Below are positions 3,960-19,148 of a stretch of DNA of 42,420 nt, piece after piece; the first letter of the stretch is position 1; the number at the start of each line of letters is the position of its first letter. Both the position numbers and the translations under genes were made by a program. A model generated the notes under the pieces. The model was not told the origin of the DNA. It searched no databases and was given only the letters and a program-made list of their open reading frames with translations. Origin of the DNA: Candidatus Competibacter sp. GTDB lineage: Bacteria > Pseudomonadota > Gammaproteobacteria > Competibacterales > Competibacteraceae. The DNA lies in the NCBI GenBank assembly GCA_029624815.1, contig JARSSH010000001.1:1-42420 (forward strand), given 5' to 3'.

Positions 3960-5681
3960 ATGTCCGCACCGATCCAGAATCCGGCAGAGCAGTTGCAGCA
4001 GGCCGCCCTGGCGCTAAACGCCGTCCAGAAAGCGCTCGACTTTGCGTTGGCGGATCTCAAGGAACGGACCCAGAAAGCCGATGGCAAGGTATCCGCCGCG
4101 CTGCTCGACCAACACCAACTGGTGAGCTACGACCTGGCGCTGTCCTGCGCGGAAGTCACCGGCGCCCGCTTCATGCTCGATTACGCCCAGCGCGCGCGCG
4201 CGGCCGGCGGCGGCCCGACCGGCGAGGCGATCCTGGAAGAGCGGTTTGCGCTACTGTTCGCCGCCGAGGCCATTCAGGGCGTCCGCAACCGTCTGAGCGC
4301 CCGCCCGGCCGATTTCGGCCTGAACGACAACTGGCTGAACGCCACCGTGGATCATCCGGCGGTGCGTGGGTTCTGCCTGGCGCAATTGCCGGCGGCCACG
4401 CTCGCCGACCTGGGTCAGCGGGTGCGCAGTCAGGATGGCGTGACCGGCGCCTATCTGCTGGACGACCATCACGAGATGATGCGCGACACCTTCCGCCGGG
4501 TGGCCGAGGAAGTGGTGATGCCGCTGGCCGAGGAAATCCACCGCCACGATCTCGACATTCCCGACACCATCCTCGATCAGGTCCGGGAAATGGGCTGCTT
4601 CGGCATTTCCATTCCGGAACGCTTCGGCGGCATCCAGAGCGACGAGCACGAAGACAATCTGGGCATGATCGTGGTCACCGAGGAACTGACTCGCGGTTCG
4701 CTGGGCGCCGCCGGCAGCCTGATCACCCGGCCCGAGATCCTGTCCAAGGCGCTGCTCAAGGGCGGCACCGAGGAGCAGAAAGAGCAGTGGCTGCCGCAAC
4801 TGGCGTCCGGCGAACTGCTGTGCGCGGTGGCGGTGACCGAACCCAACTACGGCTCCGACGTGGCCAACATGCGGCTGAAAGCCACCCGAACCGAGGGCGG
4901 CTGGCTGCTGAACGGCGCCAAAACCTGGTGTACCTTCGGCGGTAAGGCCGGGGTGCTGCTGATTTTGGCCCGCACCAACCCCGACATTTCCATCGGCCAT
5001 CGCGGCCTGTCGATGTTCCTGCTGGAGAAGCCGACGTATCCCGGCCATGCCTTCGAGTTTACTCAGGAAAGCGGCGGCAAGCTGACCGGTAAGGCCATTT
5101 CCACCATCGGCTATCGCGGGATGCACTCCTTCGACCTGTTCTTCGACAACGTTTTTGTCCCGGAAGAAAACATGCTGGGCGGGCCGAAAGGCGAGGGCAA
5201 GGGCTTCTATTTCACCATGGCCGGTTTTGCCGGCGGTCGCATTCAAACCGCTGCTCGGGCGGTGGGCGTCATGCAGGCGGCTTACGAACGGGCGCTGAGC
5301 TACGCCCAGGAACGGGTGGTCTTCGGCTATCCCATCGGCGACTACCCGCTGACTCAGACGAAACTGGCGCGGATGGCGACCTATCTGGCGGTGAGCCGGC
5401 AGTTCACCTATTCGGTGGGTCGGCTGATGGATCAGGGCGAGGGCGACATGGAAGCCAGCCTGGTCAAGTTTTTCACCTGCAAGACCGCCGAGTGGGTGAC
5501 CCGCGAGGCCTTGCAGATTCACGGCGGCATGGGTTACGCCGAGGAAATGCCGGTCAGCCGCTATTTTATCGATGCGCGGGTGCTGTCGATCTTCGAAGGC
5601 GCCGAGGAAACCCTGGCCTTGAAGGTGATCGCCCGTTCGCTGGTGGACAACGCCAAGGCCAAGGCGGAAGTGGAGGTTTGA
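3960..5681 (+). CDS. mcd: (2S)-Methylsuccinyl-CoA dehydrogenase
   Basis: This FAD enzyme oxidises (2S)-methylsuccinyl-CoA to mesaconyl-CoA in the ethylmalonyl-CoA pathway. At 573 aa it is much longer than an ordinary acyl-CoA dehydrogenase (about 380 aa) because of an N-terminal helical extension of roughly 160 residues, a known trait of Mcd. The dehydrogenase core follows: the mid-domain VAVTEPNYGSDVANM, the substrate/FAD region GGKLTGKAISTIGYRGMHSF, and the C-terminal helical domain with ALQIHGGMGYAEE. The catalytic base is most likely Glu546 in the IFEGAEETLALK segment, where acyl-CoA dehydrogenases have YEG. The start has a good ribosome site (ATGAGGT). mch follows after 3 nt, consistent with a two-gene operon. 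Electrons would go to ETF, not encoded here. Confidence 0.93.
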   Translation: MSAPIQNPAEQLQQAALALNAVQKALDFALADLKERTQKADGKVSAALLDQHQLVSYDLALSCAEVTGARFMLDYAQRARAAGGGPTGEAILEERFALLFAAEAIQGVRNRLSARPADFGLNDNWLNATVDHPAVRGFCLAQLPAATLADLGQRVRSQDGVTGAYLLDDHHEMMRDTFRRVAEEVVMPLAEEIHRHDLDIPDTILDQVREMGCFGISIPERFGGIQSDEHEDNLGMIVVTEELTRGSLGAAGSLITRPEILSKALLKGGTEEQKEQWLPQLASGELLCAVAVTEPNYGSDVANMRLKATRTEGGWLLNGAKTWCTFGGKAGVLLILARTNPDISIGHRGLSMFLLEKPTYPGHAFEFTQESGGKLTGKAISTIGYRGMHSFDLFFDNVFVPEENMLGGPKGEGKGFYFTMAGFAGGRIQTAARAVGVMQAAYERALSYAQERVVFGYPIGDYPLTQTKLARMATYLAVSRQFTYSVGRLMDQGEGDMEASLVKFFTCKTAEWVTREALQIHGGMGYAEEMPVSRYFIDARVLSIFEGAEETLALKVIARSLVDNAKAKAEVEV

Positions 5682-5684
5682 GCC

Positions 5685-6857
5685 ATGAGTTTCTCGATGC
5701 GACTGAGCGAACAAGCGGAAGTGGCGGGGTCGGTGGCGGTCAACCTGGAATGGGTGCGGCGACCGCAGTACGGGCGCTATCTGGATGAGTTCGTACCGGG
5801 GCAGGTGTTCGTCCATCCGCGCGGCTACACCTTCGAGCGGGGTCCGATGCTGGATTTCGCCCGGGTGTTCATGCAGTGCAACCCGCTGTATCTGAATCTG
5901 GAATACGCCAGGGCGCACGGCTTCCCGGATTTGCCGGCCAGCCCGCAGATGGTGTTCAACGTGGTGCTGTCGCTGGGGGTGCACAACGATTCCGAAAAAG
6001 CCATCGCCAATCTCGGTTATTACAACGTGCAATTCCTCCGTCCGGTCTATCCGGGCGACACTCTGCGCGGCTACACCAAGGTGATGGATCGCAAGGCGCG
6101 CGGCGAAGACAAACCGGGTATCGTGTTGATTCGCACCTTGGGCGTGAACCAGCATAACCAGGTGGTGTTGCAGTACGAACGCAAGATCATGGTCGGCTAT
6201 CGCGGCGACCGCCTGCCGACCACCCCCGCGCCGACCACGCCGGTCGAATTTCCGTGGGTGGAGCATCCGGTGATGGATCTGCCGATCAACGCGGGTGGCT
6301 ATCCCAGCCAGTTGACCGGCCCCAACACCTATTTCGAGGACTTTTCCCTCGGCGACCTGATTGTCCACGCCAACGGCCGCACCATCACCGACGAGCACAT
6401 GGCCTGGACCTACTTGGTCGGTAATACCCATCCGCTGCATTTCGACCGGGTGTACAGCACCGGTCTATCGGGCAAGATGAGCGGCGAGCCGATTGTGTAC
6501 GGCGGCTTGGTGTTCGCCTGGCTGGAGGGCCTGGCCAGCCGCGATGTCAGTGAGAACGCGCTGTGGGAATTGGGTTTCACCGAGGGTTATCACACCCAGC
6601 CGGCGGTGTCCGGCGATACGGTGGCGGCGCTCTCCAGAGTAGTGGCGACCGAGACCCTGCTCAATAGCGACGCCGCTGGCATCGTGACCTTCCAGTTCAT
6701 TGGTGTGAAGAACATCAGCGCCGCCGCCGCGCTGGAAACCCATGGCGCGGATTTGTTTATCAAGGAGAACGATAAGCAGAAGCTGAGCAAGGAGAAGCTC
6801 AGCAGCAAGATCTTCGAGATCGAACGGCGGTTGTTGATCAAGCGGCGACCAGTGTGA
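5685..6857 (+). CDS. mch: Mesaconyl-C1-CoA hydratase (beta-methylmalyl-CoA dehydratase)
   Basis: This enzyme adds water to mesaconyl-CoA, giving beta-methylmalyl-CoA, the substrate of malyl-CoA lyase. The 390-aa protein has two MaoC-like hotdog units. The first is around residues 25-165 (FVHPRGYTFERGPMLDFARVF, NVQFLRPVYPGDTL). The second is around 205-340, with the hydratase-type segment DEHMAWTYLVGNTHPLHFD followed by GEPIVYGGLVFAWLEG. The first unit looks less canonical at its active site, as is usual for double-hotdog hydratases. It is slightly longer than the characterised enzymes (about 350 aa), with a lysine-rich tail. It starts 3 nt after mcd, preceded by GGAGGTTTGAGCC. Together they are the oxidation and hydration steps of the EMC pathway. 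Confidence 0.9.
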   Translation: MSFSMRLSEQAEVAGSVAVNLEWVRRPQYGRYLDEFVPGQVFVHPRGYTFERGPMLDFARVFMQCNPLYLNLEYARAHGFPDLPASPQMVFNVVLSLGVHNDSEKAIANLGYYNVQFLRPVYPGDTLRGYTKVMDRKARGEDKPGIVLIRTLGVNQHNQVVLQYERKIMVGYRGDRLPTTPAPTTPVEFPWVEHPVMDLPINAGGYPSQLTGPNTYFEDFSLGDLIVHANGRTITDEHMAWTYLVGNTHPLHFDRVYSTGLSGKMSGEPIVYGGLVFAWLEGLASRDVSENALWELGFTEGYHTQPAVSGDTVAALSRVVATETLLNSDAAGIVTFQFIGVKNISAAAALETHGADLFIKENDKQKLSKEKLSSKIFEIERRLLIKRRPV

Positions 6858-6890: not shown

Positions 6891-6956
6891 GGCTATAAGT
6901 GCGGATAAGTTTTTCGCCTACTTTATCGGTTATTGACAACATACAAAGACAAGATT

Positions 6957-7586
6957 ATGCAAAGACTAAAAATTATTGAATTAAAAGATGGCGGTCAAGC
7001 TAAACATATTGGCTTACAAATTGGTGATTTTCTCAATACCTATAACAATATTCCACTAAAAACATCCGAATCTCTTTCGGAGGTAATGCGCAAGCATGAA
7101 GGTGAAGTACATAAGCTGCATATAATACGAGATTTTCAGGGATTTGAGATTAATGTAACTGCAGGTTCGCTTGGTATTGATGTTATACCTAATTATGTTG
7201 CCGATATTTCCGATCCAGAAGAGGTTAGGCAAGCACAGATAAGACGACTAGCAGAGAATATGCCAATAAGCACGACTCCATTTATGCCAGGGTTCCGAAC
7301 AGTTAAAGTGGTGAATATTGTTACATCAGAGTGTGTGCTGGGTATTAATATGTTAATGGATCTTTTTGCTTCAGTTTCTGATATTGTTGGAGGGCGTAGT
7401 AAGACTACTCAATCGGCACTCCGAGATGCTCGGTATACTTGTTTACGAGAACTCAAGTCTGAAGCTGCACAAATTGGCGCAAACGCAATTATCGGTGTTA
7501 GCTTTCATTACAGTGAGCTCTCAGGTGGTGGAAAATCAATGTTATTTCTTGTTGCATCTGGAACCGCTGTCTGCATTGAACCTTGA
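6957..7586 (+). CDS. PDZ-YbjQ (UPF0145) two-domain protein
   Basis: This 209-aa cytoplasmic protein combines two small domains. Residues about 1-80 look like a degenerate PDZ fold (LKIIELKDGGQAKHIGLQIGDFL, a ligand-groove-like start). Residues about 100-209 match the YbjQ/UPF0145 domain, including GINMLMDLFASVSDIVGGRS, AAQIGANAIIGVSFHY and a terminal VASGTAVCIE. YbjQ proteins form pentamers; their function is poorly defined. The base composition is far more AT-rich (about 40% GC) than mch just upstream, which suggests horizontal acquisition. ATG at 6957 is chosen; TTG at 6933 would add eight residues. Neither has a convincing ribosome site. There is no evident link to the EMC pathway. Confidence 0.8.
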   Translation: MQRLKIIELKDGGQAKHIGLQIGDFLNTYNNIPLKTSESLSEVMRKHEGEVHKLHIIRDFQGFEINVTAGSLGIDVIPNYVADISDPEEVRQAQIRRLAENMPISTTPFMPGFRTVKVVNIVTSECVLGINMLMDLFASVSDIVGGRSKTTQSALRDARYTCLRELKSEAAQIGANAIIGVSFHYSELSGGGKSMLFLVASGTAVCIEP

Positions 7587-8083: not shown

Positions 8084-8266
8084 ATGGAAAAAACCCTCAG
8101 AATAGTATCGTTGCGCGAGCAGCCAAATGATTACGCATACTGGATTTCAAAGCCAGTTAGTGATCGCATTGATGCTGTAGAGATTCTCCGTAACCAATAT
8201 ATAAATTTCAGAAAAGATGTTGAGCCAAGACTTCAAAGAGTTTGTCGAATTATTAAACAAGCATAA
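8084..8266 (+). CDS. Small partner protein of a nucleotidyltransferase, 60 aa
   Basis: This 60-aa ORF begins MEKTLRIVSLREQPND and ends in a basic segment (PRLQRVCRIIKQA). Its 3' end overlaps the start of the following nucleotidyltransferase gene by 50 nt in another frame, pointing to translational coupling. Small proteins with this layout commonly precede AbiEii/DUF6036-like nucleotidyltransferases, so it may be the cognate partner or antitoxin; this is from memory of gene neighbourhoods and no biochemical role is known to me. AAGG about 9 nt upstream may be the ribosome site. AT-rich composition matches the island, not the flanking EMC genes. Confidence 0.6.
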   Translation: MEKTLRIVSLREQPNDYAYWISKPVSDRIDAVEILRNQYINFRKDVEPRLQRVCRIIKQA

Positions 8267-8663
8267 GGTTGAATATCTTATTGTCGGTGGCTATGCCGTG
8301 GGGATACATGGTTACCCAAGATACACGGGAGATTTGGATGTCTGGATAAATGCAACTATGGAAAATGCTCAAAAAATGGTAAGAGTGTTTGATGATTTTG
8401 GGTTTTCTTCTTTCGGGTTAAGAGAAGAGGATTTTATAAAGTCAGGCAATGTGATACAGATGGGCTATCCACCATTTCGTATAGATATTCTCACGACAAT
8501 TGATGGGGTCGGGTTTAAGGATTGTTATAAAAATAAAATGGTGGTTTTGCACGATGAGATGATTTTATATGTGATAGGCATTGAGGATTTAAAAAAGAAC
8601 AAAAAGGTGAGTGGAAGATTAAAAGATATCGATGATTTGGAAAATTTAAAAGATCCGAGTTAA
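8217..8663 (+). CDS. Nucleotidyltransferase-fold protein (AbiEii/DUF6036-like)
   Basis: This 148-aa protein has the minimal polymerase-beta-type nucleotidyltransferase signature: YLIVGGYAVGIHGYPR followed by YTGDLDVWI, with the paired Asp of DLD as likely metal ligands (residues about 39-41). A third acidic position may be the Asp in FRIDILTTI. Proteins of this type are found in toxin-antitoxin or abortive-infection modules, where they transfer nucleotides to RNA or protein targets, but many are uncharacterised. It overlaps the 60-aa ORF upstream by 50 nt. ATG at 8217 is used; TTG at 8220 is an alternative. Its AT-rich composition indicates recent transfer between mch and ecm. Confidence 0.75.
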   Translation: MLSQDFKEFVELLNKHKVEYLIVGGYAVGIHGYPRYTGDLDVWINATMENAQKMVRVFDDFGFSSFGLREEDFIKSGNVIQMGYPPFRIDILTTIDGVGFKDCYKNKMVVLHDEMILYVIGIEDLKKNKKVSGRLKDIDDLENLKDPS

Positions 8664-8749: not shown

Positions 8750-10750
8750 ATGTCTACCCCCAAACGCGACAAACCCTGGCTGATGCGGACCTATTCCGGC
8801 CATTCCTCCGCCAAGGCATCCAACGAGTTGTACCGCACCAACCTCAGCAAAGGACAGACTGGTCTATCGGTTGCCTTCGATCTGCCGACCCAGACCGGCT
8901 ACGATGCCGATCATCCGCTGGCGCGCGGCGAGGTCGGCAAGGTCGGTGTGCCGATCTGCAACATCGGCGACATGGAGGCGCTGTTCGATCAAATACCGCT
9001 GGGACAGATGAACACCTCGATGACCATCAACGCCACCGCCGCCTGGCTGCTGTCGTTGTACGTCGCGGTGGCCGAACGGCAGGGCGCGGCGCCCGCGCAA
9101 TTACAGGGCACCACCCAGAACGACATCCTCAAGGAGTACCTGTCGCGCGGCACCTACATCTTCCCGCCCCAACCTTCGGTGCGCCTGATCACCGACATCA
9201 TCGCCTACACGGTCAAGAACATCCCCAAGTGGAACCCGACCAACATCTGTAGCTACCACTTGCAGGAAGCTGGCGCCACGCCGACCCAGGAACTGGCCTA
9301 CGCCCTGTCCACGTCCATCGCTATCCTGGATGCGGTTCGCGATTCCGGCCAGATTGGCGCGGAAGGCTTCGAGCAGGTCGTCGGGCGCATTTCCTTCTTC
9401 GTCAACGCCGGGATTCGCTTCATCGAGGAAACCTGCAAGATGCGGGCGTTCGGCGAAATGTGGGACAAGCTCACCCAGGAACGCTATGGCGTGCAGAGCG
9501 AGGACATGCGCCGCTTCCGCTACGGCGTACAGGTCAATTCGCTCGGCCTGACCGAAGCGCAGCCGGAAAACAACGTCCAGCGCATCGTGCTGGAAATGCT
9601 CGGCATCACCCTGTCCAAGAAAGCCCGCGCCCGCGCCCTGCAACTCCCGGCCTGGAACGAGGCGCTCGGGTTGCCGCGTCCTTGGGATCAGCAATGGGCG
9701 CTGCGGATGCAGCAGGTGCTGGCGTTCGAGACCGATCTGCTCGAATACGGCGACATTTTCGACGGCTCGCCGGTGATCGCCGCCAAGGTCAAGGCCCTGG
9801 TGGACGGCGCAACCGAGGAAATGGCCCGGGTGCAGGAACAGGGCGGGATGGTGCAGGCCATCGAATCCGGTTACGTCAAGCGGCAACTGGTCACCAGCCA
9901 TACCGAGCGGATGCGCGCCATCGAGCACGGCAATCTCAAAATCGTCGGCCTGAATTGCTACAAGGAAACCGAGGAATCGCCGCTGACCGGCGGCGTTGAC
10001 AGTGGCATCATGAAGGTCGATCCGCGCGCCGAACGCGAGCAGATCGAACGACTCAACGCCTTCCGCGCCCAGCGCAACAGCACCGAAGTCAAGGCGGCCC
10101 TGGCCAATCTGGCCGAAACCGCGCGCGGCGGGGCCAATATCATGCCCGCCTCGATCCTGTGCGCCCATGCTGGCGTCACCACCGGCGAGTGGTCGCAGAC
10201 CCTGCGCGACATCTTCGGCGAATACCGCGCTCCCACCGGCATCGACATTCCGGCCAACGACGACAGTCGCGGTGCTCAGGCGACGGCTATCCGTGCCCAG
10301 GTGGCCAAGACCGGCGAGGAACTGGGCCGGCCGCTGCGCCTGCTGATCGGCAAGCCGGGTCTGGACGGTCACAGCAACGGCGCGGAACAGATTGCCGTCA
10401 AGGGCCGCGATGTCGGTTTTGAGATCGTCTACGAAGGCATCCGCCTGACCCCCGAGCAAATCGCCAAGGCGGCGCTGGAGGAGGGCGTTCACCTGATCGG
10501 CCTGTCGGTGCTGTCCGGCAGCCATGTGGAAATGGTCGAGGATGTGTTCGGGCGGCTGGATCAGGCCGGTTTGAAAGGGCTACCGGTGGTGATCGGCGGC
10601 ATTATCCCGGAAAGCGATGCCAAGCTACTGAAAGAGCGCGGTATCTCGGCGGTCTATACGCCCAAGGATATCGACATGAACGGCATCATGGTCGATATCC
10701 TTAACCTGATTCGTAAAGCCCACGACCTGCAACCGGTCACGGTGGCATGA
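8750..10750 (+). CDS. ecm: Ethylmalonyl-CoA mutase
   Basis: This B12-dependent mutase rearranges (2R)-ethylmalonyl-CoA to (2S)-methylsuccinyl-CoA. At 666 aa it is one chain carrying both the substrate TIM barrel (from about residue 30, with YRTNLSKGQTGLSVAFDLPTQ) and the C-terminal cobalamin domain. The base-off B12 motif DxHxxG is DGHSNG at residues 539-544, followed by LSVLSGSH and VIGGIIP. The assignment to Ecm rather than methylmalonyl-CoA mutase rests on its short N-terminus, its divergence from the mutase at 28795-30975, and its position next to ccr. AGAGAGG lies 6 nt before the ATG. Its stop overlaps the start of the MeaB-like GTPase gene (ATGA). Confidence 0.9.
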   Translation: MSTPKRDKPWLMRTYSGHSSAKASNELYRTNLSKGQTGLSVAFDLPTQTGYDADHPLARGEVGKVGVPICNIGDMEALFDQIPLGQMNTSMTINATAAWLLSLYVAVAERQGAAPAQLQGTTQNDILKEYLSRGTYIFPPQPSVRLITDIIAYTVKNIPKWNPTNICSYHLQEAGATPTQELAYALSTSIAILDAVRDSGQIGAEGFEQVVGRISFFVNAGIRFIEETCKMRAFGEMWDKLTQERYGVQSEDMRRFRYGVQVNSLGLTEAQPENNVQRIVLEMLGITLSKKARARALQLPAWNEALGLPRPWDQQWALRMQQVLAFETDLLEYGDIFDGSPVIAAKVKALVDGATEEMARVQEQGGMVQAIESGYVKRQLVTSHTERMRAIEHGNLKIVGLNCYKETEESPLTGGVDSGIMKVDPRAEREQIERLNAFRAQRNSTEVKAALANLAETARGGANIMPASILCAHAGVTTGEWSQTLRDIFGEYRAPTGIDIPANDDSRGAQATAIRAQVAKTGEELGRPLRLLIGKPGLDGHSNGAEQIAVKGRDVGFEIVYEGIRLTPEQIAKAALEEGVHLIGLSVLSGSHVEMVEDVFGRLDQAGLKGLPVVIGGIIPESDAKLLKERGISAVYTPKDIDMNGIMVDILNLIRKAHDLQPVTVA

Positions 10751-11727
10751 TCCCGGCGCTTCCCGACCCAACGGCGCTGGCCGCCGCGGTCGGCGCCCGA
10801 GACCGGTTGGCGCTGGCCCAGGCATTGAATCTGCTGGACGACCGCCGGCCGGCGGCCCGCCAGTGCGCGGCGGCCTTTCTGGACGCGTTGCCCGCGGAGA
10901 AGCTGGATACCGGCGGACATTTGATCGGTATCACTGGTCCGCCCGGCGCGGGGAAATCCTCGTTGACCGCCGCCCTGATCCAGGTCTGGCGACGACGGAA
11001 ACTGAAGGTCGCCATCCTGGCGGTGGATCCGTCCAGCCCGATCAGCGGCGGCGCATTGCTGGGCGACCGGCTGCGGATGCATGCCAGCGGCGCCGACCGC
11101 GAGGTGTTTATTCGCTCGCTGGCCTGTCGCGGCGAGTTCGGTGGCCTGAGCGCCGAAGTCTGGCCGATGAGCCTGGCGATGCTGGCGGCCTTCGACATCG
11201 TGTTGGTGGAGACGGTGGGGGTCGGGCAGAAAGAGATCGACGTGTCCAAGATGACCGACACCACCTGCTTCGTCGCTCAACCGGCTTCCGGGGACAGCAT
11301 TCAGTTTCTCAAAGCCGGCATCATGGAAGTGCCGCATGTGATCGTGGTCAACAAGGAAGACATTGGCATGGCCGCGCGCAAGACTCTATCCGAGCTGAAA
11401 ACCACGCTGGGACGACGAACGGATGCCGAAGGTTGGCAGGCGCCGGCGTTGTCGGCTAGCGCCGCGCTGGGTAGTGGCATCGAGTCGTTGGCCGATGCCC
11501 TGGACGGACATCGGCGCTGGCTGCTGGAGCGGGGCCAGTTCACCGCCCGCCGCCAGCGTTGCCAGGCGGAATGGCTGGTCAAACACTTGCGCGAGGAATT
11601 CGGCCGTTACGGTATCGGCCTGCTGGGTGGTGAAAACGCCTTATTCGCGGAACTGATCCGCGCACCGCGCCGATCGCCGATCGCCGCCTACGAAGACTTG
11701 CGAACCCGAGTGGTTCCTTGTTTTTAA
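10747..11727 (+). CDS. MeaB/ArgK-family GTPase, likely chaperone of ethylmalonyl-CoA mutase
   Basis: This 326-aa P-loop GTPase of the MeaB/ArgK (G3E) family protects and reloads B12-dependent acyl-CoA mutases. Visible motifs are the Walker [10 protein letters not shown] (64-72), the switch region [30 protein letters not shown] (Walker B region) and VVNKED (NKxD). Its start codon overlaps the ecm stop as ATGA, so the two are translationally coupled and the partner is most likely Ecm. It is clearly different from the second MeaB at 25470-26600, for example GPPGAGKSS against GVPGAGKST and a shorter N-terminus. ccr begins about 50 nt downstream in the same direction. Confidence 0.88.
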
Positions 11728-11776: not shown

Positions 11777-13528
11777 ATGGTCAAAGAACTTTACGCTTTA
11801 GGCGACCAACCGCCGCTGGGCGCGGTGCCCGCCAAGATGCACGCCTGGCTGATTCGCCCGGAACGTTTCGGGACGCCGATGGAAGCGTTTCAACAGGAAG
11901 TGGTGGACATCCCCCCGATTGCCGCCGACGAAGTGCTGGTCTACGTCATGGCGGCCGGGATCAACTACAACAACGTCTGGGCCGGGCTGGGTATCCCGGT
12001 CAACGTCATCGGCGCGCGCAACAAGGCCGGCGAAAAGGAAGACTTTCACATTGGCGGCAGCGACGCCTCGGGCATCGTCTACCAGGTCGGCAAGGACGTC
12101 ACCAACGTCCAGGTGGGCGACGAAGTGGTGATGCACTGCGGTCAATACAGCCGGAACTGCGACTGGGTCAAAAGCGGCGGCGACCCCATGTACTCGCCCA
12201 CCTTCCGCATCTGGGGCTACGAAACCAACTGGGGCAGCTTCGCCCAATTCACCAAGGTGCAGGCCCAGCAATGCATGCCCAAACCCAAGCACATGACCTG
12301 GGAAGAAGCGGCCGCCTACACCCTGGTCGCGGCCACCGCCTGGCGGATGCTGCACGGCTGGGGCGCCAACGCCATCAAGAAAGGCGACGTCGCCCTGATC
12401 TGGGGCGGGGCGGGCGGCTTGGGCTCCATGGCTATTCAGATCGCCAAGGCGGCCGGCGCCACGTCGATCGCCATGGTCTCCGGCGAGGACAAATTCGACT
12501 ACTGCATGAAGCTCGGCGCCAAGGGCTGCATCAACCGCAACGACTTCGACCACTGGGGCATGTTGCCGCACTGGAAGGACAACGTCGGCTACGCCAAATG
12601 GATGAAGGGCGTGCGCGCCTTCGGGGCCAGGATCTGGGAGGTGCTGGGCGAAAAGCGCGCCCCCAACCTCGTGTTTGAGCACCCCGGCGAAACCACCATC
12701 CCCACCTCCATCTTCGTCTGCGACACCGGCGGCATGGTGGTGGTCTGCGCCGGCACCACCGGCTACAACGCCACCGTCGATCTGCGCTACCTGTGGATGC
12801 GGCAAAAACGCCTGCAAGGCTCGCACTTCGCCAACACCGAGCAATCCAACCAAATGAACGCACTGGCCCTGCGCGGCCTGCTCGATCCCTGCCTGTCGCG
12901 GGCCTTCACCTACCAGGAAATCCCGGTCGCCCATCAACTGATGTACGAAAACAAGCACCCGCACGGCAACATGGCGGTGCTGGTCGGCGCGACCGCGTTC
13001 GGTCAGGGCGCCAGCGGCCCGCCGCCGGTGGCGATCCCGCATCCGACCCTGCCCCAGGGCGATATCCACACCACCCCGCACCCCTACCCGATGTCCGAAC
13101 CGCTGCCCAGCGTGGCCCAGGCCGAGGCCATCGCCATCAGCGACGACGGCGCCCGGGTCAAGGATCTGATGCATCGCGGCATCATCGCCTGCGGACCGGA
13201 CGACAGCGTCGCCCAGGTGGCGAAACTGATGATCGACCAGGAAATCCACGCGGTGGTGGTGATGGACGGCGGCCAGGCCACCGGCGTGGTGTCGCAGACC
13301 GATCTGGTGCTGGCCCGCCAGGGTCGGACACCAGAGGAAGCGCGCGCGCTGCTGGCCAAGAACGTCATGACCCCCGGTTGCGCCACCTGCGACGCCGACA
13401 TGCTGCTCAGCGAGGCGGTCAGCCTGATGACCGGTCGGCGCATGCACCGCCTGGTGGTCACCGAGAACCACCAGCCCACCGGCGTCATTTCCATGACCGA
13501 CGTGGTCCGGAAATTGATCGGGGCGTGA
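11777..13528 (+). CDS. ccr: Crotonyl-CoA carboxylase/reductase fused to a C-terminal CBS-domain pair
   Basis: Ccr performs NADPH-dependent reductive carboxylation of crotonyl-CoA to ethylmalonyl-CoA, the committed step of the EMC pathway. Residues 1 to about 405 are a full-length MDR-type Ccr. They include [14 protein letters not shown], the nucleotide-binding [13 protein letters not shown] (209-221), [13 protein letters not shown] (146-158) and LQGSHFAN (346-353); the Asn, Glu and His in these segments lie where CO2-binding residues of known Ccr are expected. The protein then carries a Pro/His-rich linker (about 406-460) and two CBS motifs (about 461-583; [20 protein letters not shown], then [13 protein letters not shown] and [12 protein letters not shown]). 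Known Ccr enzymes are about 430 aa. ATG at 11777 ([10 protein letters not shown]) matches the family start; an upstream TTG at 11732 was rejected. Confidence 0.93.
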
Positions 13529-13535
13529 ACCGGTG

Positions 13536-13571: not shown

Positions 13572-13602
13572 CGTCCAATCTGGGTTGAGAGGAGCGCGCG
13601 CC

Positions 13603-14580
13603 ATGAAAGCCGTCGTCTGTCGTGAATTGACCGGACCCGCCGCGCTGCGGCTGGAAAACGTGCCAGAGCCGCGTCCCGAATCCGGTCAGGTGCGATTGCG
13701 GGTGCGGGCCTGTGGGGTCAATTTCGCCGACAGTCTGATCACGCGTGGCCAGTATCAGGCCCAGCCAAAACCACCGTTTAGCCCCGGTTTCGAGGTGGCC
13801 GGCGAAGTACTGGAGTTGGGCGCTGGAGTCGAAGGGCTGGCGGTCGGCGATCGGGTGATCGCCATGCTTCCGCACGGTGGTTACGCCGAGCAAGTCGTGG
13901 TCGGCGCTCATCGCTGCGTGGCCATGCCGGCGGCAATGCCAGACGCGCACGGCGCGGCGTTTCCGGTGGTGTTCGGCACTTCGCATGTGGCGTTGTGGCA
14001 TCGGGCGCGGCTGCGAGCGGGCGAGACCCTGGTCGTGCATGGCGCCGCCGGTGGGGTCGGTTTGACGGCGGTGGCCATCGGCAAACGGTTGGGCGCGACG
14101 GTGGTCGCCACCGCCAGCGGTCCCGAAAAACTGGCGATCGCCCGCCAGCATGGCGCCGATCATCTGATCGATGTCGGCCGCGAGGACGTGCGGGCGCGGA
14201 TCAAGGATCTGACTGATGGGCGCGGCGCGGATGTGGTGTACGATCCGGTCGGCGGCGAGCTGTTCACCGCTTCGTTGCGCGCCATCGCCTTCGAAGGGCG
14301 GATTTTGGTCATCGGTTTCGCCGGTGGCACCGTGCCGCAAATCCCCGCCAATCATCTACTGGTTAAGAACGTGGATGTCATCGGCTTGAACTGGCCGGTC
14401 TACGCGGAACGCCATCCAGGGATCATGACGGAAAGTTTTCGGGTGCTCATCCAGTGGTATCTGGAGGGAGCGATTCAGCCTTATGTGTCGGCGATTTATT
14501 CCTTGGAACAAGCGATTGATGCTTTGGATCAGGTGGTTGCGCGCAAATCCACCGGCAAGGTGGTCATCGGTGTGGATTGA
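13603..14580 (+). CDS. NADPH:quinone oxidoreductase-like MDR protein
   Basis: This 325-aa medium-chain dehydrogenase/reductase is of the zinc-free quinone oxidoreductase type. The N-terminal GroES-like domain includes VRACGVNFADSLITRGQY and PFSPGFEVAGEV. The Rossmann domain has VHGAAGGVGLTAVAIGK (an AxxGxxG-type NADPH site) at about residues 145-162. The Cys ligands of zinc alcohol dehydrogenases are absent. ATG at 13603 is preceded by GAGAGGAG 8 nt upstream, so the TTG at 13585 is not needed. It follows the ccr terminator, so it has its own promoter. It belongs to the same superfamily as Ccr but lacks the long Ccr insertions. Substrate unknown; enoyl-CoA or quinone reduction are both possible. 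Confidence 0.85.
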   Translation: MKAVVCRELTGPAALRLENVPEPRPESGQVRLRVRACGVNFADSLITRGQYQAQPKPPFSPGFEVAGEVLELGAGVEGLAVGDRVIAMLPHGGYAEQVVVGAHRCVAMPAAMPDAHGAAFPVVFGTSHVALWHRARLRAGETLVVHGAAGGVGLTAVAIGKRLGATVVATASGPEKLAIARQHGADHLIDVGREDVRARIKDLTDGRGADVVYDPVGGELFTASLRAIAFEGRILVIGFAGGTVPQIPANHLLVKNVDVIGLNWPVYAERHPGIMTESFRVLIQWYLEGAIQPYVSAIYSLEQAIDALDQVVARKSTGKVVIGVD

Positions 14581-15132: not shown

Positions 15133-16404
15133 TCAGCCTTTCTGCACCAGAGGCAATAGGAAGGCGATAAACACCGCCGCGAAGATGGCGCTGGTGATGA
15201 CGCCGCTGATGCTCGCGCCGAGCGCGTGTGGCAAGACGATAATACCGGGGCCAACCGATTTCTGCGCCACCTTGGCACAGGTGGGCACGCAGCTCACCCC
15301 GGCGATGCCGGTCACCGGGTTGTACTTCTTGCCTGACCAGTAGTACATCACATAACCGCCCAGAATGCCGCCGATGCCGGAAATCAATAGCGCCAGAATG
15401 CCCAGTATCAGCAGTTTTAGCACCACCGGATTCAGGATGGTGCCGGCTTCGCACAGCACCCCCAACAGCAGCCCCAGAAAGAACGTCGCGCTGTACAGCA
15501 TCGTGTTCGAGAACAGTTCAAAGAAATAGGTCAGTTCGCTTTCACGAACGACCACTCCGATAAACAGCGATAGAAATAGCGGGGACGCGACCGGGAACAG
15601 CAGGCTGAGCAGCACGCAGGCGATCACGGCGAACACCAGCTTTTGGTTGGAGGTGATCGGCTGGGTTTTCTCCATCGGCATGGGCAGGTTGCGCAGCCGT
15701 TCGGGGATCAGCAGCTTGATCAGGTACGGATAGCCGCCGTAGGTCAGCCCCAGGTACAGGTAGGCCACCACCGTGATCGGCACGAACAGTTTCGGCGCCA
15801 GTTGCAGGGAGGTGAAGAGCACCATCGGCCCGTCGGCGCCGCCGATGGTCGCCACCGATGCCGCTTGTCCGGGTGTCAGTCCCAGCGCCACGGCGATCGG
15901 AAATACGAAGACCGTACCCAACTCCGCGAACAGGGCGACGAACATGCTCTGAAACGGGCGGGCCATCACAAACCCCACGTCCAACAGGGATCCGATGCCC
16001 ATGAACACCAGACAGGCGATCAGACCGTTGCTGAACATGAAGGTGTAGATCGGTTGCAGCCAGTTGATCTGGAGGATGTTCACCAGCGCGGTGGTGTCCG
16101 AGGCCAACGGTGCGACGAACAGGGTGCCGGGCAACTGCTGCGCTGCTTGGCCGGCGACGATGTTCATGCCGGTTGCCGGGTCGTAGGCGGAGAAGAACAT
16201 CACCCCGGCATTGATAGTGGCCATGCCCAAGCCCATCGGGATCATCAGCAGGGCTTCCAGCACCCCCTTGCGTCCCAGATAGAGCAACACAACCCCCAAC
16301 GCCATCAGAAAGATACGGCCGAAGGCGATCTTGGGGTCGGTGGCAAAGCCTTGAACCAGGGTGCTAATGCCCTGGAAGATATCAAGTACATTGAGGGATT
16401 CCAT
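15133..16404 (-). CDS. mmdB: Na+-translocating methylmalonyl-CoA decarboxylase, beta subunit
   Basis: This 423-aa integral membrane protein is the carboxybiotin decarboxylase and sodium channel of the Na+-transport decarboxylase family (MmdB/OadB/GcdB). It has about nine to eleven hydrophobic segments. Two hallmark regions are present: GGADGPMVLFTSLQLAP, with the Asp that binds Na+ in OadB, and NPVTGIAGVSCVPTCAKVA near the C-terminus, with the conserved Asn-Gly-Ser/Cys-Pro signature. It decarboxylates carboxybiotin on MmdC and exports Na+ in the process. It is the last gene of the four-gene minus-strand operon, 18 nt after mmdC. By sequence alone beta subunits of oxaloacetate, glutaconyl-CoA and methylmalonyl-CoA pumps are interchangeable; the alpha subunit in this operon decides for methylmalonyl-CoA. 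Confidence 0.92.
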   Translation of the reverse strand: MESLNVLDIFQGISTLVQGFATDPKIAFGRIFLMALGVVLLYLGRKGVLEALLMIPMGLGMATINAGVMFFSAYDPATGMNIVAGQAAQQLPGTLFVAPLASDTTALVNILQINWLQPIYTFMFSNGLIACLVFMGIGSLLDVGFVMARPFQSMFVALFAELGTVFVFPIAVALGLTPGQAASVATIGGADGPMVLFTSLQLAPKLFVPITVVAYLYLGLTYGGYPYLIKLLIPERLRNLPMPMEKTQPITSNQKLVFAVIACVLLSLLFPVASPLFLSLFIGVVVRESELTYFFELFSNTMLYSATFFLGLLLGVLCEAGTILNPVVLKLLILGILALLISGIGGILGGYVMYYWSGKKYNPVTGIAGVSCVPTCAKVAQKSVGPGIIVLPHALGASISGVITSAIFAAVFIAFLLPLVQKG

Positions 16405-17279: not shown

Positions 17280-18830
17280 TTAGAGCGGAATATCGCCGTG
17301 CTTCTTGGCCGGGCGCAACTCGCGTTTGGTCAGCAGTTTGCGCATCGCCAGAGCGATGGTGGCGCGGGTGTCGGCCGGTTCGATCACATCGGTGATGTAG
17401 CCGCGCGAGGCCGACATGTACGGTGAGGCGAACTTGGCGCGATACTCGTCGGCCAGCTCCTTGGATTTGGCCTTGCGGTCCTCGGCGCTCTTGAGCTCGC
17501 CGCGGTAGAGGATATTGACCGCGCCTTCGGCGCCCATCACCGCGATTTCGGCGGTCGGCCAGGCGAAGACCATGTCAGCGCCCATTTCCTGGGCGCACAT
17601 CGCTAGATAGGAGCCACCGTAGGCTTTGCGCAGGATGATGGTGATCTTGGGGACGGTCGCCGATGCATAGGTGTAGAGCATCTTGGCGCCGTGGCGAATG
17701 ATGCCGCCGCGTTCCTGCTCGATGCCGGGCAGAAAGCCGGGTACGTCCACCAGCGTCACCAACGGGATATTGAAGGCGTTGCAGAAGCGGATGAAGCGCG
17801 CGCCCTTGTCGGAGGCGTCGATGTCCATCGCGCCGGCCTTGACCAGCGACTGGTTGGCCAGAATGCCGACCACGATGCCCTGGATGCGGGCGAAACCGAT
17901 GACCAGATTGCCGGCCCAGCCGGCGTGCACTTCCAGGAACCGGCCGTTGTCCACCAGGCGCTTGATGATCGGTTGCACGTCCATCGGTTCCGAAGACGTT
18001 TCCGGAATCAAGGCATTAATCCCTTCGTCCGCCGACAGGTCGAGGTCGGGGTAGGGCTGGTGCGGCGGATCCTCGGTATTGTTGGACGGCAGATAGCTGA
18101 GCAATTCCTTGGCGATCTGGATGGCGTGGCGGTCGTCATCGGCGACGAAATGAACGTTGCCGCTGACCGTGGCGTGCATCAGGGCGCTGCCGACTTCGTC
18201 CAGGCTGGTGGTGCGGCCGGTGACCGCCTTGATCACCTCCGGGCCGGTGATGAACATGTAGGCGTTCTGCTTGGTCATGATGATGTAATCCATCAGCGCC
18301 GGCGAATAGGACGCGCCGCCGGCGCAGGGACCAGCGATGATGGCGATTTGCGGCACCACGCCCGATAGCAGGACGTTATTGTAGAACACCTCGCCGTAGC
18401 CGGAGAGCGCGTCCACCGCTTCTTGAATGCGGGCGCCGGCGGAGTCCTTGAACGCCACCACCGGCATGCCGGTCTTCAGGGCCAACTGCATGGACTGCAC
18501 GATTTTCTTGGCGTGCATCTTGCCTAGGGTGCCGCCCATGACGGTGAAATCCTGGCTGAACGACGCCACCGGACGGCCATCCACGAAACCGGTGCCGACG
18601 ATCACTCCGTCCGATGGCAGCTCCTTGTCCGCGAGGCCGAAATGCTTGGCGGCATGCTTGGCGTGCGTGCCTATTTCCTGAAAGGTATCGGGCTGGAATA
18701 GGGCCAGCAATCGCTCCCGGGCGCCCATCAGTCCCTTGGTATGCCGTTCCTGGAGTTTATCCTCGCCGCCGCCCGCTAGAACCTTGGCGCGGCGTTCCCG
18801 CAAAATATCGAGCTGTTTCTCGGAAAGCAT
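17280..18830 (-). CDS. mmdA: Methylmalonyl-CoA decarboxylase alpha subunit (carboxyltransferase)
   Basis: This 516-aa carboxyltransferase moves the carboxyl group from methylmalonyl-CoA to the biotin of MmdC. It has the two crotonase-like halves of acyl-CoA carboxylase beta subunits. The N-half has GARERLLALFQPDTFQEIG and the oxyanion-hole region AGPCAGGASYSPALMDY. The C-half has ILANQSLVKAGAMDID, VDVPGFLPGIEQERGGIIRHGAK and ILRKAYGGSYLAMC. Propionyl-CoA carboxylase beta subunits look alike, but the adjacent pump subunits and the absence of a biotin carboxylase favour the decarboxylase. ATG at 18830 is preceded by AGGTGAGG. It is the first gene of the operon; mmdD follows after 69 nt. It could still pair with a biotin carboxylase encoded elsewhere. 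Confidence 0.9.
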   Translation of the reverse strand: MLSEKQLDILRERRAKVLAGGGEDKLQERHTKGLMGARERLLALFQPDTFQEIGTHAKHAAKHFGLADKELPSDGVIVGTGFVDGRPVASFSQDFTVMGGTLGKMHAKKIVQSMQLALKTGMPVVAFKDSAGARIQEAVDALSGYGEVFYNNVLLSGVVPQIAIIAGPCAGGASYSPALMDYIIMTKQNAYMFITGPEVIKAVTGRTTSLDEVGSALMHATVSGNVHFVADDDRHAIQIAKELLSYLPSNNTEDPPHQPYPDLDLSADEGINALIPETSSEPMDVQPIIKRLVDNGRFLEVHAGWAGNLVIGFARIQGIVVGILANQSLVKAGAMDIDASDKGARFIRFCNAFNIPLVTLVDVPGFLPGIEQERGGIIRHGAKMLYTYASATVPKITIILRKAYGGSYLAMCAQEMGADMVFAWPTAEIAVMGAEGAVNILYRGELKSAEDRKAKSKELADEYRAKFASPYMSASRGYITDVIEPADTRATIALAMRKLLTKRELRPAKKHGDIPL

Positions 18831-19148
18831 GATCCTCACCTCACTTGGTGTTCGAGTTGGTCGGCAAACGGACAATCAATAAACCTTCCCCCACTGAGCC
18901 GCGTCACGGGAAGCGGGCTAGTTATTTAAGGCTTATGTGCGGGGGAAATCGCGATTTCAGCGAAACGGTAAGCGGCCGGCGGATTAAGGATAGCGCCCGC
19001 CCATCCCAAGACCACCGCTTTCAACTTCTGCCTAAGGGTAGTCGAAATCCAAATAAACGCGATAGCCGTCCATGGCTTTTGCGATGGGTCATTGACGTCG
19101 GTGTGTTCCCTCCCCGGAGAGTGAGGACGGAGCACACCGAGGCGAAAG
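18831..19148. other. Intergenic region upstream of mmdA
   Basis: These 318 bases hold the leader of the mmd operon (AGGTGAGG before mmdA at the left edge) and the 3' flank of the 60-aa ORF at the right. CGGTGTG (19099-19105) and CACACCG (19133-19139) form an imperfect hairpin after that ORF, a possible terminator without a T-run. ORFs here show no family resemblance and look like chance frames. I found no convincing promoter pair or RNA gene. Confidence 0.5.

Follow-up and report, generated by a model that had tools for sequence, protein, structure and literature searches.

The chemistry of crotonyl-CoA carboxylase/reductase (Ccr) involves NADPH and CoA thioesters. The solved Ccr chains are tailless and have 410–467 residues; they include Methylobacterium extorquens Ccr (4gi2), AntE (4y0k) and 9kva. 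CBS pairs usually bind adenine nucleotides, and two of them make up AMPK gamma-1, a kinase regulatory subunit. A CBS pair is also found fused to a metabolic enzyme in IMP dehydrogenase and in the arabinose-5-phosphate isomerase KdsD. AcuB, which senses energy charge for acetyl-CoA synthesis in Bacilli, contains a CBS pair and an ACT domain and binds the deacetylase AcuC. In AcuB, Asp52 and Asp122 are reported to bind ribose and the AMP-loaded form to hold down acetyl-CoA synthesis at low energy charge; its co-purifying nucleotides were analysed by HPLC (PMC13121692). Enoyl-CoA carboxylase/reductases are described as fixing CO2 faster than any other enzymes and as tetramers, with one case of a dimer (PMC12632816).

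In phosphate-removing and glycogen-storing bacteria, the ethylmalonyl-CoA (EMC) pathway is proposed as a source of propionyl-CoA and as a redox outlet (PMC8956781, PMC12604563). For Contendobacter it was described as providing propionyl-CoA for PHV, and of seven genes examined, Competibacter was reported to have five (PMC8956781). In Accumulibacter, type I above all, EMC transcripts increased under low phosphate and a redox-balancing role was proposed (PMC12604563). The pathway was also reported in Defluviicoccus (PMC9041414). The term ‘CBS’ is absent from the main text of these three EMC papers (PMC8956781, PMC12604563, PMC9041414). No earlier mention of a Ccr-CBS fusion was found in the literature searched, which left most subscription journals outside its scope; within this scope, the view taken in the preliminary description that the fusion is undescribed agrees with the search. 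Two papers that name both CBS domains and ethylmalonyl-CoA seem, judged from their titles, to deal with something else.

The window analysed here is the whole stretch of 42,420 nucleotides from Candidatus Competibacter sp. A single open frame at window positions 11777–13528 (+) encodes a protein of 583 aa in which a complete Ccr is followed by a Pro/His-rich linker and two CBS domains. The Ccr catalytic part (residues 1–405; 11777–12991, +) is supported by the TIGR01751 profile, by structure matches and by alignments. The match to TIGR01751 (NCBIfam, crotonyl-CoA carboxylase/reductase, equivalog) covers residues 16–412 and positions 3–396 of the 398 of the model, with 549.1 bits for a cut-off of 378.55. 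The 13 residues that close the Ccr part end at about residue 403. The linker (residues 406–457; 12992–13147, +) is supported by pLDDT, conservation and dN/dS. Two stretches of the 583-aa protein match PF00571 (CBS, Pfam; 85.2 bits, cut-off 24). CBS1 (residues 458–513; 13148–13315, +) contains G503-V-V-S-Q-T-D509, and CBS2 (residues 523–583; 13343–13525, +), the second PF00571 stretch, contains H557-R558 and G569-V-I-S-M-T-D575. The continuous frame and the Ccr/linker/CBS boundaries given in the preliminary description were thus correct, and its identification of a Ccr with a tandem CBS pair is supported by the profile matches and by structure models.

Structure prediction had been suggested in that description; in the resulting models the Ccr part resembles solved Ccr and the tail resembles CBS pairs. 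The AlphaFold2 model of the full protein, built from 53 aligned sequences (window and loci), has a mean pLDDT of 80.8 and a pTM of 0.70. Its low-confidence parts are the linker at 432–455 (pLDDT < 50) and a loop at about 327–348. The Ccr part of the model matches 9kva_A (Z 52.0, 397 residues aligned, rmsd 1.6) and 4gi2_B (Z 47.4). The likeness to the tailless Ccr proteins 4gi2, 4y0k and 9kva extends over about 405 residues at 53–55 percent identity when aligned by structure, whereas the linker and CBS pair add about 178 residues here. The CO2 pocket reportedly consists of an Asn, a Phe/Tyr, a Glu and a His, according to work on the Kitasatospora enzyme. In the window protein, N63-Y64-N65, Y148 and H350 are invariant among the 53 aligned sequences and E149 is present in at least 90 percent of them. 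Counterparts of N63/N65, Y148, E149 and H350 are found in 3hzz (F at 148), 4gi2 and 4y0k, and 9kva has N at 149; as the alignment was made without the Kitasatospora enzyme, either N63 or N65 may be the pocket Asn.

The tail was modelled alone (residues 404–583, 40 sequences) with a mean pLDDT of 78.3. Among the 50 matches listed, this model aligned with CBS pairs at Z 16.5–19.1, with 2rc3_A at Z 19.1. The match to AMP/ADP-bound AcuB (9s4v_C) had a Z of 18.6 and an rmsd of 1.8 over 124 aligned residues. D509 and D575 (106 and 172 in the model) fall at about the places of AcuB Asp52 and Asp122 when the aligned ranges (model 55–180 to chain 0–130) are compared as ranges rather than residue by residue. 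The Ccr tail and AcuB share the CBS fold, an Asp for each of two riboses and a place in acetyl-CoA metabolism. AcuB is a separate protein, whereas the Ccr tail is a covalent part of the enzyme, and the Pfam search gave no ACT domain match in the fused protein. The tail also matches the CBS parts of IMP dehydrogenase and KdsD models (structures 4o9k, 3k2v and 3fna are among the fold matches listed). Like the Ccr tail, the CBS pair of KdsD lies near the C-terminus, but the catalytic domains of IMP dehydrogenase and KdsD are unrelated to Ccr. With AMPK gamma-1 the likeness is one of module only: the tail profile matches it at 1.5e-14, and the match spans a single CBS pair. When the tail was compared by sequence with the PDB, the top matches were CBS proteins associated with archaeal ribosomes (9zni) and a chain named dehydrogenase (9sr9), which are not enzyme regulators of known ligand; CBS2 alone gave E-values of 5.6e-6 and weaker.

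Both CBS domains are kept in all 28 representatives (< 85 percent identity). The tail positions invariant among them are A405, G411, V461, V495, G503, T508, D509, Q515, M531, A547 and G569, while S506, H557, R558 and D575 are each present in 27. Several of the conserved positions sit in G-x-x-S-x-T-D motifs of both CBS halves, and each half has a ribose-type Asp motif (D509 in 28/28, D575 in 27/28). The CBS2 motif is lost in one Myxococcota member (L103). The linker is the least conserved segment. Six pairwise comparisons against the window gene gave a dN/dS of 0.065–0.099 for the Ccr part, 0.107–0.231 for the CBS part and 0.177–0.623 for the linker; these are simple Nei–Gojobori estimates, with synonymous distances of up to about 1.26. 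Purifying selection acts on the CBS pair.

The gene lies in a group of EMC genes. Upstream on the same strand are an acyl-CoA dehydrogenase with an N-terminal extension, a probable methylsuccinyl-CoA dehydrogenase (mcd; 3960–5681, +; PF00441, PF02771 and PF02770, no NCBIfam model over cut-off), the mesaconyl-CoA hydratase (mch; 5685–6857, +; PF19315, PF01575), a B12-dependent acyl-CoA mutase, probably ethylmalonyl-CoA mutase (ecm; 8750–10750, +; PF01642 and PF02310, below the methylmalonyl-CoA mutase equivalog cut-off), and a MeaB-type GTPase (10747–11727, +; PF03308, TIGR00750). The names mcd and ecm were given from operon context. Downstream of ccr-CBS lies a gene for a quinone-oxidoreductase-like MDR protein (‘pig3’; 13585–14580, +; PF00107, and TIGR02824 at 248.7 bits, below its cut-off of 296.8). 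Counted by locus name, a ‘pig3’ homologue accompanies ccr-CBS in 12/16 Competibacter/Contendobacter loci and in 20/20 Accumulibacter loci. The one-strand arrangement of mcd-like, mch, ecm-like, meaB and ccr recurs across many related loci but is absent from those of Caenispirillum. Ten proteins, one of them a Defluviicoccus control, were tried around one Caenispirillum and two Myxococcota copies, and no pathway context was found there.

Two further genes lie between mch and ecm in the window. The first (6933–7586) encodes a YbjQ-domain protein with a PDZ match below cut-off; the second (8217–8663) encodes a weakly DUF6036-nucleotidyltransferase-like protein (below cut-off) with homologues in L037, L045, L052 and L054. 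After the EMC operon, the genes at 15133–16404 (–) and 17280–18875 (–) resemble the beta and alpha subunits of a sodium-pumping (methyl)malonyl-CoA decarboxylase, with NCBIfam scores below the cut-offs; two routes to propionyl-CoA may therefore adjoin. Elsewhere in the genome, a mesaconyl-CoA-hydratase-like protein (recognized by eye, no NCBIfam match), an HpcH/HpaI-family lyase and a 2-methylfumaryl-CoA-isomerase-like protein (607 bits, cut-off 725) are encoded in a row in L150 (G000:C57:140885-141583), and a second HpcH/HpaI-family lyase is encoded in L149 (C57:145380-146024). We take this gene row to resemble part of the 3-hydroxypropionate bi-cycle.

The source genome (3.63 Mb, 70 contigs, 99.97 percent complete) contains two full-length copies of ccr-CBS. 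The second copy is on another contig with different flanks (G000:C44:25101-26849, i.e. L146:8099-9850). The two copies differ by 1 base in 1728 bp (window 11803–13530), yet they diverge in the flanks and in the initial 26 bases of the gene. In the copy pairs of two Contendobacter genomes, L038/L041 and L039/L043, five and six of eleven 150-base bins were identical and the first bins were 81–91 percent identical. This pattern looks like gene conversion between old paralogues, with assembly effects possible. The L046 copy pair had no identical 150-base bin. A tandem pair of fused ccr-CBS genes with 67 and 66 percent identity to the window protein was seen at L093:5953-10294. Around the second copy (L146:5401-10652, G000:C44), a beta-carbonic anhydrase gene is directly upstream, so that the gene of a CO2-handling enzyme adjoins that of a CO2-fixing enzyme, and MarR and GTP-dependent PEP carboxykinase genes lie on the other side. 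This layout recurs in L041 and L043. L046 has the MarR and PEP carboxykinase genes after the first copy, and the carbonic anhydrase gene directly downstream of the other.

Other fusions were sought, as the preliminary description had suggested, by scanning a collection with peptide patterns from the window protein; the scan therefore favours its relatives. Among the best 80 of 90 confirmed stretches, 70 loci had the tail (one partial, one with a frame break) and ten did not. The hosts are Competibacteraceae (Gamma), Accumulibacter and Propionivibrio (Beta), Defluviicoccus (Alpha) and some others, Caenispirillum and Myxococcota members included. At least three proteobacterial classes contain the fusion, and a restriction to the genus of the window was rejected. 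The names Competibacter, Contendobacter, Accumulibacter, Propionivibrio or Defluviicoccus account for 41 of the 70 tailed loci and other names for 29. MAG binning may misname hosts, and bins called Kineosporiaceae, Actinomycetales, Anaerolineae or Synechococcaceae may be mis-binned. Within this relatives-biased scan, the fusion recurs in glycogen- or polyphosphate-storing bacteria that live through feast/famine cycles.

In the family of the window, 22 of 59 genomes gave a match (own genome included, E up to 1e-40). The Ccr protein was complete in 18 of them and was fused in all 18; the remaining four matches were fragments, two of which had CBS residues. When 397 Pseudomonadota genomes were drawn evenly, a Ccr match (E up to 1e-80) turned up in 72; only two of these had the tail, the window's own genome and G292, so the idea that the fusion is a general Ccr feature was rejected. 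Of 369 genomes from the same class as the window, four had a Ccr match and three were fused, all three in the window's family (one being its own genome). In both draws the three best candidates per genome were scored, and second Ccr copies may therefore be missed. From these counts, few Ccr proteins are fused overall, yet in certain lineages the fusion is the norm. Among 25 genomes picked by hand via their loci, 23 had the fusion, and it was the only Ccr match (E up to 1e-70) in 20 of the 23. The other three were two Caenispirillum genomes with a fused and an unfused Ccr (55 percent identity) and one MAG with two further Ccr matches, both without the CBS pair. The family of G292 had a match in 21/59 genomes; five were fused, and all five also had a tailless Ccr-like gene, two at 55 percent identity (the Caenispirillum pair) and three at 39–42 percent. 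Treating the fused and unfused forms as simple alternatives thus fails in this family.

A set of 111 Ccr proteins was obtained after fragments and broken frames had been dropped (match start after residue 3 or end before 400; L026-L028, L033-L036, L092 and L101 among them) and 20 sequences identical over the first 400 residues had been merged. It contains 74 full-length fusions, distinct in the first 400 residues and from many assemblies. In a 99-row tree of the Ccr part, which left out 12 unfused rows, the fused proteins group with proteins of Oleiphilus and Pseudoduganella, close relatives in which the tail is absent. The neighbouring group is unfused and mostly Spirochaetota, and other unfused Pseudomonadota proteins are far away. 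The free 99-row tree needs three changes, of which the starred branches force two; alone, it speaks against a single origin. A free tree of 38 hand-chosen rows needs two changes. When its 23 fused rows were constrained to one clade, the log-likelihood changed by +10.08 (p-AU 0.71), and a single origin was not rejected. Placement is uncertain for the Oleiphilus, Pseudoduganella and Myxococcota rows. A tailless copy placed among the fused proteins (L100) was outside the 38-row test and would count as a loss. The simplest account may be one fusion event followed by a few losses. The stretch SQTDxxLARQG, around the invariant T508, D509 and Q515, is shared by most of the 28 representatives (L094, L096 and L098 are examples of exceptions) and suits a common origin of the tail. 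The Accumulibacter and Propionivibrio proteins (Beta) share 80–85 percent identity with the window protein, and in the 99-row tree they stand next to Competibacteraceae (Gamma). The loci of both share the gene order mcd-mch-ecm-meaB-ccrCBS-pig3, to which the window adds genes between mch and ecm. The identity, the grouping and the gene order together point to a transfer of the operon.

That a frameshift, a misassembly or a MAG chimaera produced the fusion has next to no probability. The sources are mostly MAGs and one locus (L101) has a frame break, but the fusion is also present in Caenispirillum salinarum AK4 and C. bisanense USBA 140, neither of them tagged as a MAG in its record title, and in a Defluviicoccus SSA4 MAG titled complete genome. 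A join of two genes was rejected because of the second full-length genomic copy and the 74 distinct, intact fusions. The two refuters named in the preliminary description, such a join and a lack of the tail in most homologues of the lineage, therefore do not apply, the latter in view of the 18/18 fused proteins. It is very improbable that the CBS pair was fused by chance and is idle. A natural copy without the pair exists: in a MAG whose other copy (L074) is fused, the frame of L100:6001-7356 stops inside the linker, which offers a natural comparison. Unfused relatives exist as well. Purifying selection on the CBS part, its presence in 28/28 representatives and the 18/18 complete family members with the tail argue against an idle domain.

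We consider it probable, with some reserve, that the protein is a nucleotide-gated Ccr, in which an EMC-pathway enzyme is fused to an adenine-nucleotide-sensing CBS pair that tunes flux to energy charge. Regulation of Ccr by adenine nucleotides is plausible in view of the conserved Asp motifs, the purifying selection and the AMP-, ADP- or ATP-bound proteins among the closest folds. The pair might instead sense another adenosyl compound (SAM, Ap4A, c-di-AMP, a CoA or an NAD(P) species) and report one-carbon, stress or redox state. Close folds include MJ0100 with MTA/SAM, AcuB with Ap4A and DarB with c-di-AMP, and NADPH and CoA thioesters are at hand in Ccr chemistry. Among the 50 matches listed, AMP, ADP or ATP was named as ligand in ten and another ligand in eight (SAM/MTA 4, c-di-AMP 2, Ap4A 1, cGAMP 1); since six of the ten are one protein, AcuB, the preference for AMP, ADP or ATP is weak. 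The DarB rows are only 12 percent identical, however, and the tail profile reaches AMPK gamma. We regard a different ligand as unlikely. A mainly structural tail, which would set the oligomeric state or dock a partner such as carbonic anhydrase and hold a nucleotide as a constant structural cofactor, is rather unlikely too. The described tetramers and single dimer of the enzyme class (PMC12632816) would suit it, as would the beta-carbonic anhydrase gene next to the second copy, in L041 and L043 and next to one L046 copy. The conserved tail positions include the ligand-type motif in both halves, though, and the window copy is flanked by meaB and the MDR gene, not by carbonic anhydrase.

For the nucleotide-gated Ccr, we infer the ligand, the subunit pairing, the allostery and the sign of the gating as follows. 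The Ccr part would carry out the NADPH-dependent reductive carboxylation of crotonyl-CoA in the EMC pathway. The CBS pair probably joins that of a neighbouring subunit in the Ccr oligomer, the structure model being a monomer. AMP, ADP and ATP would compete at the two sites of the pair, and binding would act via the linker on the subunit arrangement or on domain closure. The likelier sign, by analogy with AcuB, is that AMP slows Ccr and ATP or ADP allows it. Flux from the PHB/crotonyl-CoA pool to ethylmalonyl-CoA, and on to propionyl-CoA, PHV or C4 acids, would then follow the energy charge. The preliminary description had placed such control at the committed EMC step. This wording needs a caveat, for isocitrate lyase is also encoded in the genome, and because of it the EMC pathway need not serve acetate assimilation alone. 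As the pathway is then not the sole route to use acetyl-CoA, a switch on Ccr would be useful.

More tentatively, and rather as a possibility than as an expectation, Ccr-CBS may have arisen once and been passed with its operon among unrelated feast/famine bacteria (Competibacter, Accumulibacter, Propionivibrio, Defluviicoccus), in which it would switch the flow from the PHB pool into propionyl-CoA/PHV or C4 acids to the right anaerobic or aerobic phase only. If the gating is real, a natural allosteric Ccr would be a useful part for engineers, given the fast CO2 fixation described for this enzyme class (PMC12632816). How phosphate-removing and glycogen-storing bacteria direct their carbon and redox flows as anaerobic and aerobic phases alternate is a central question of wastewater biology. 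Were Ccr nucleotide-gated in them, transcript levels alone would not report flux, and community models would miss a control point.
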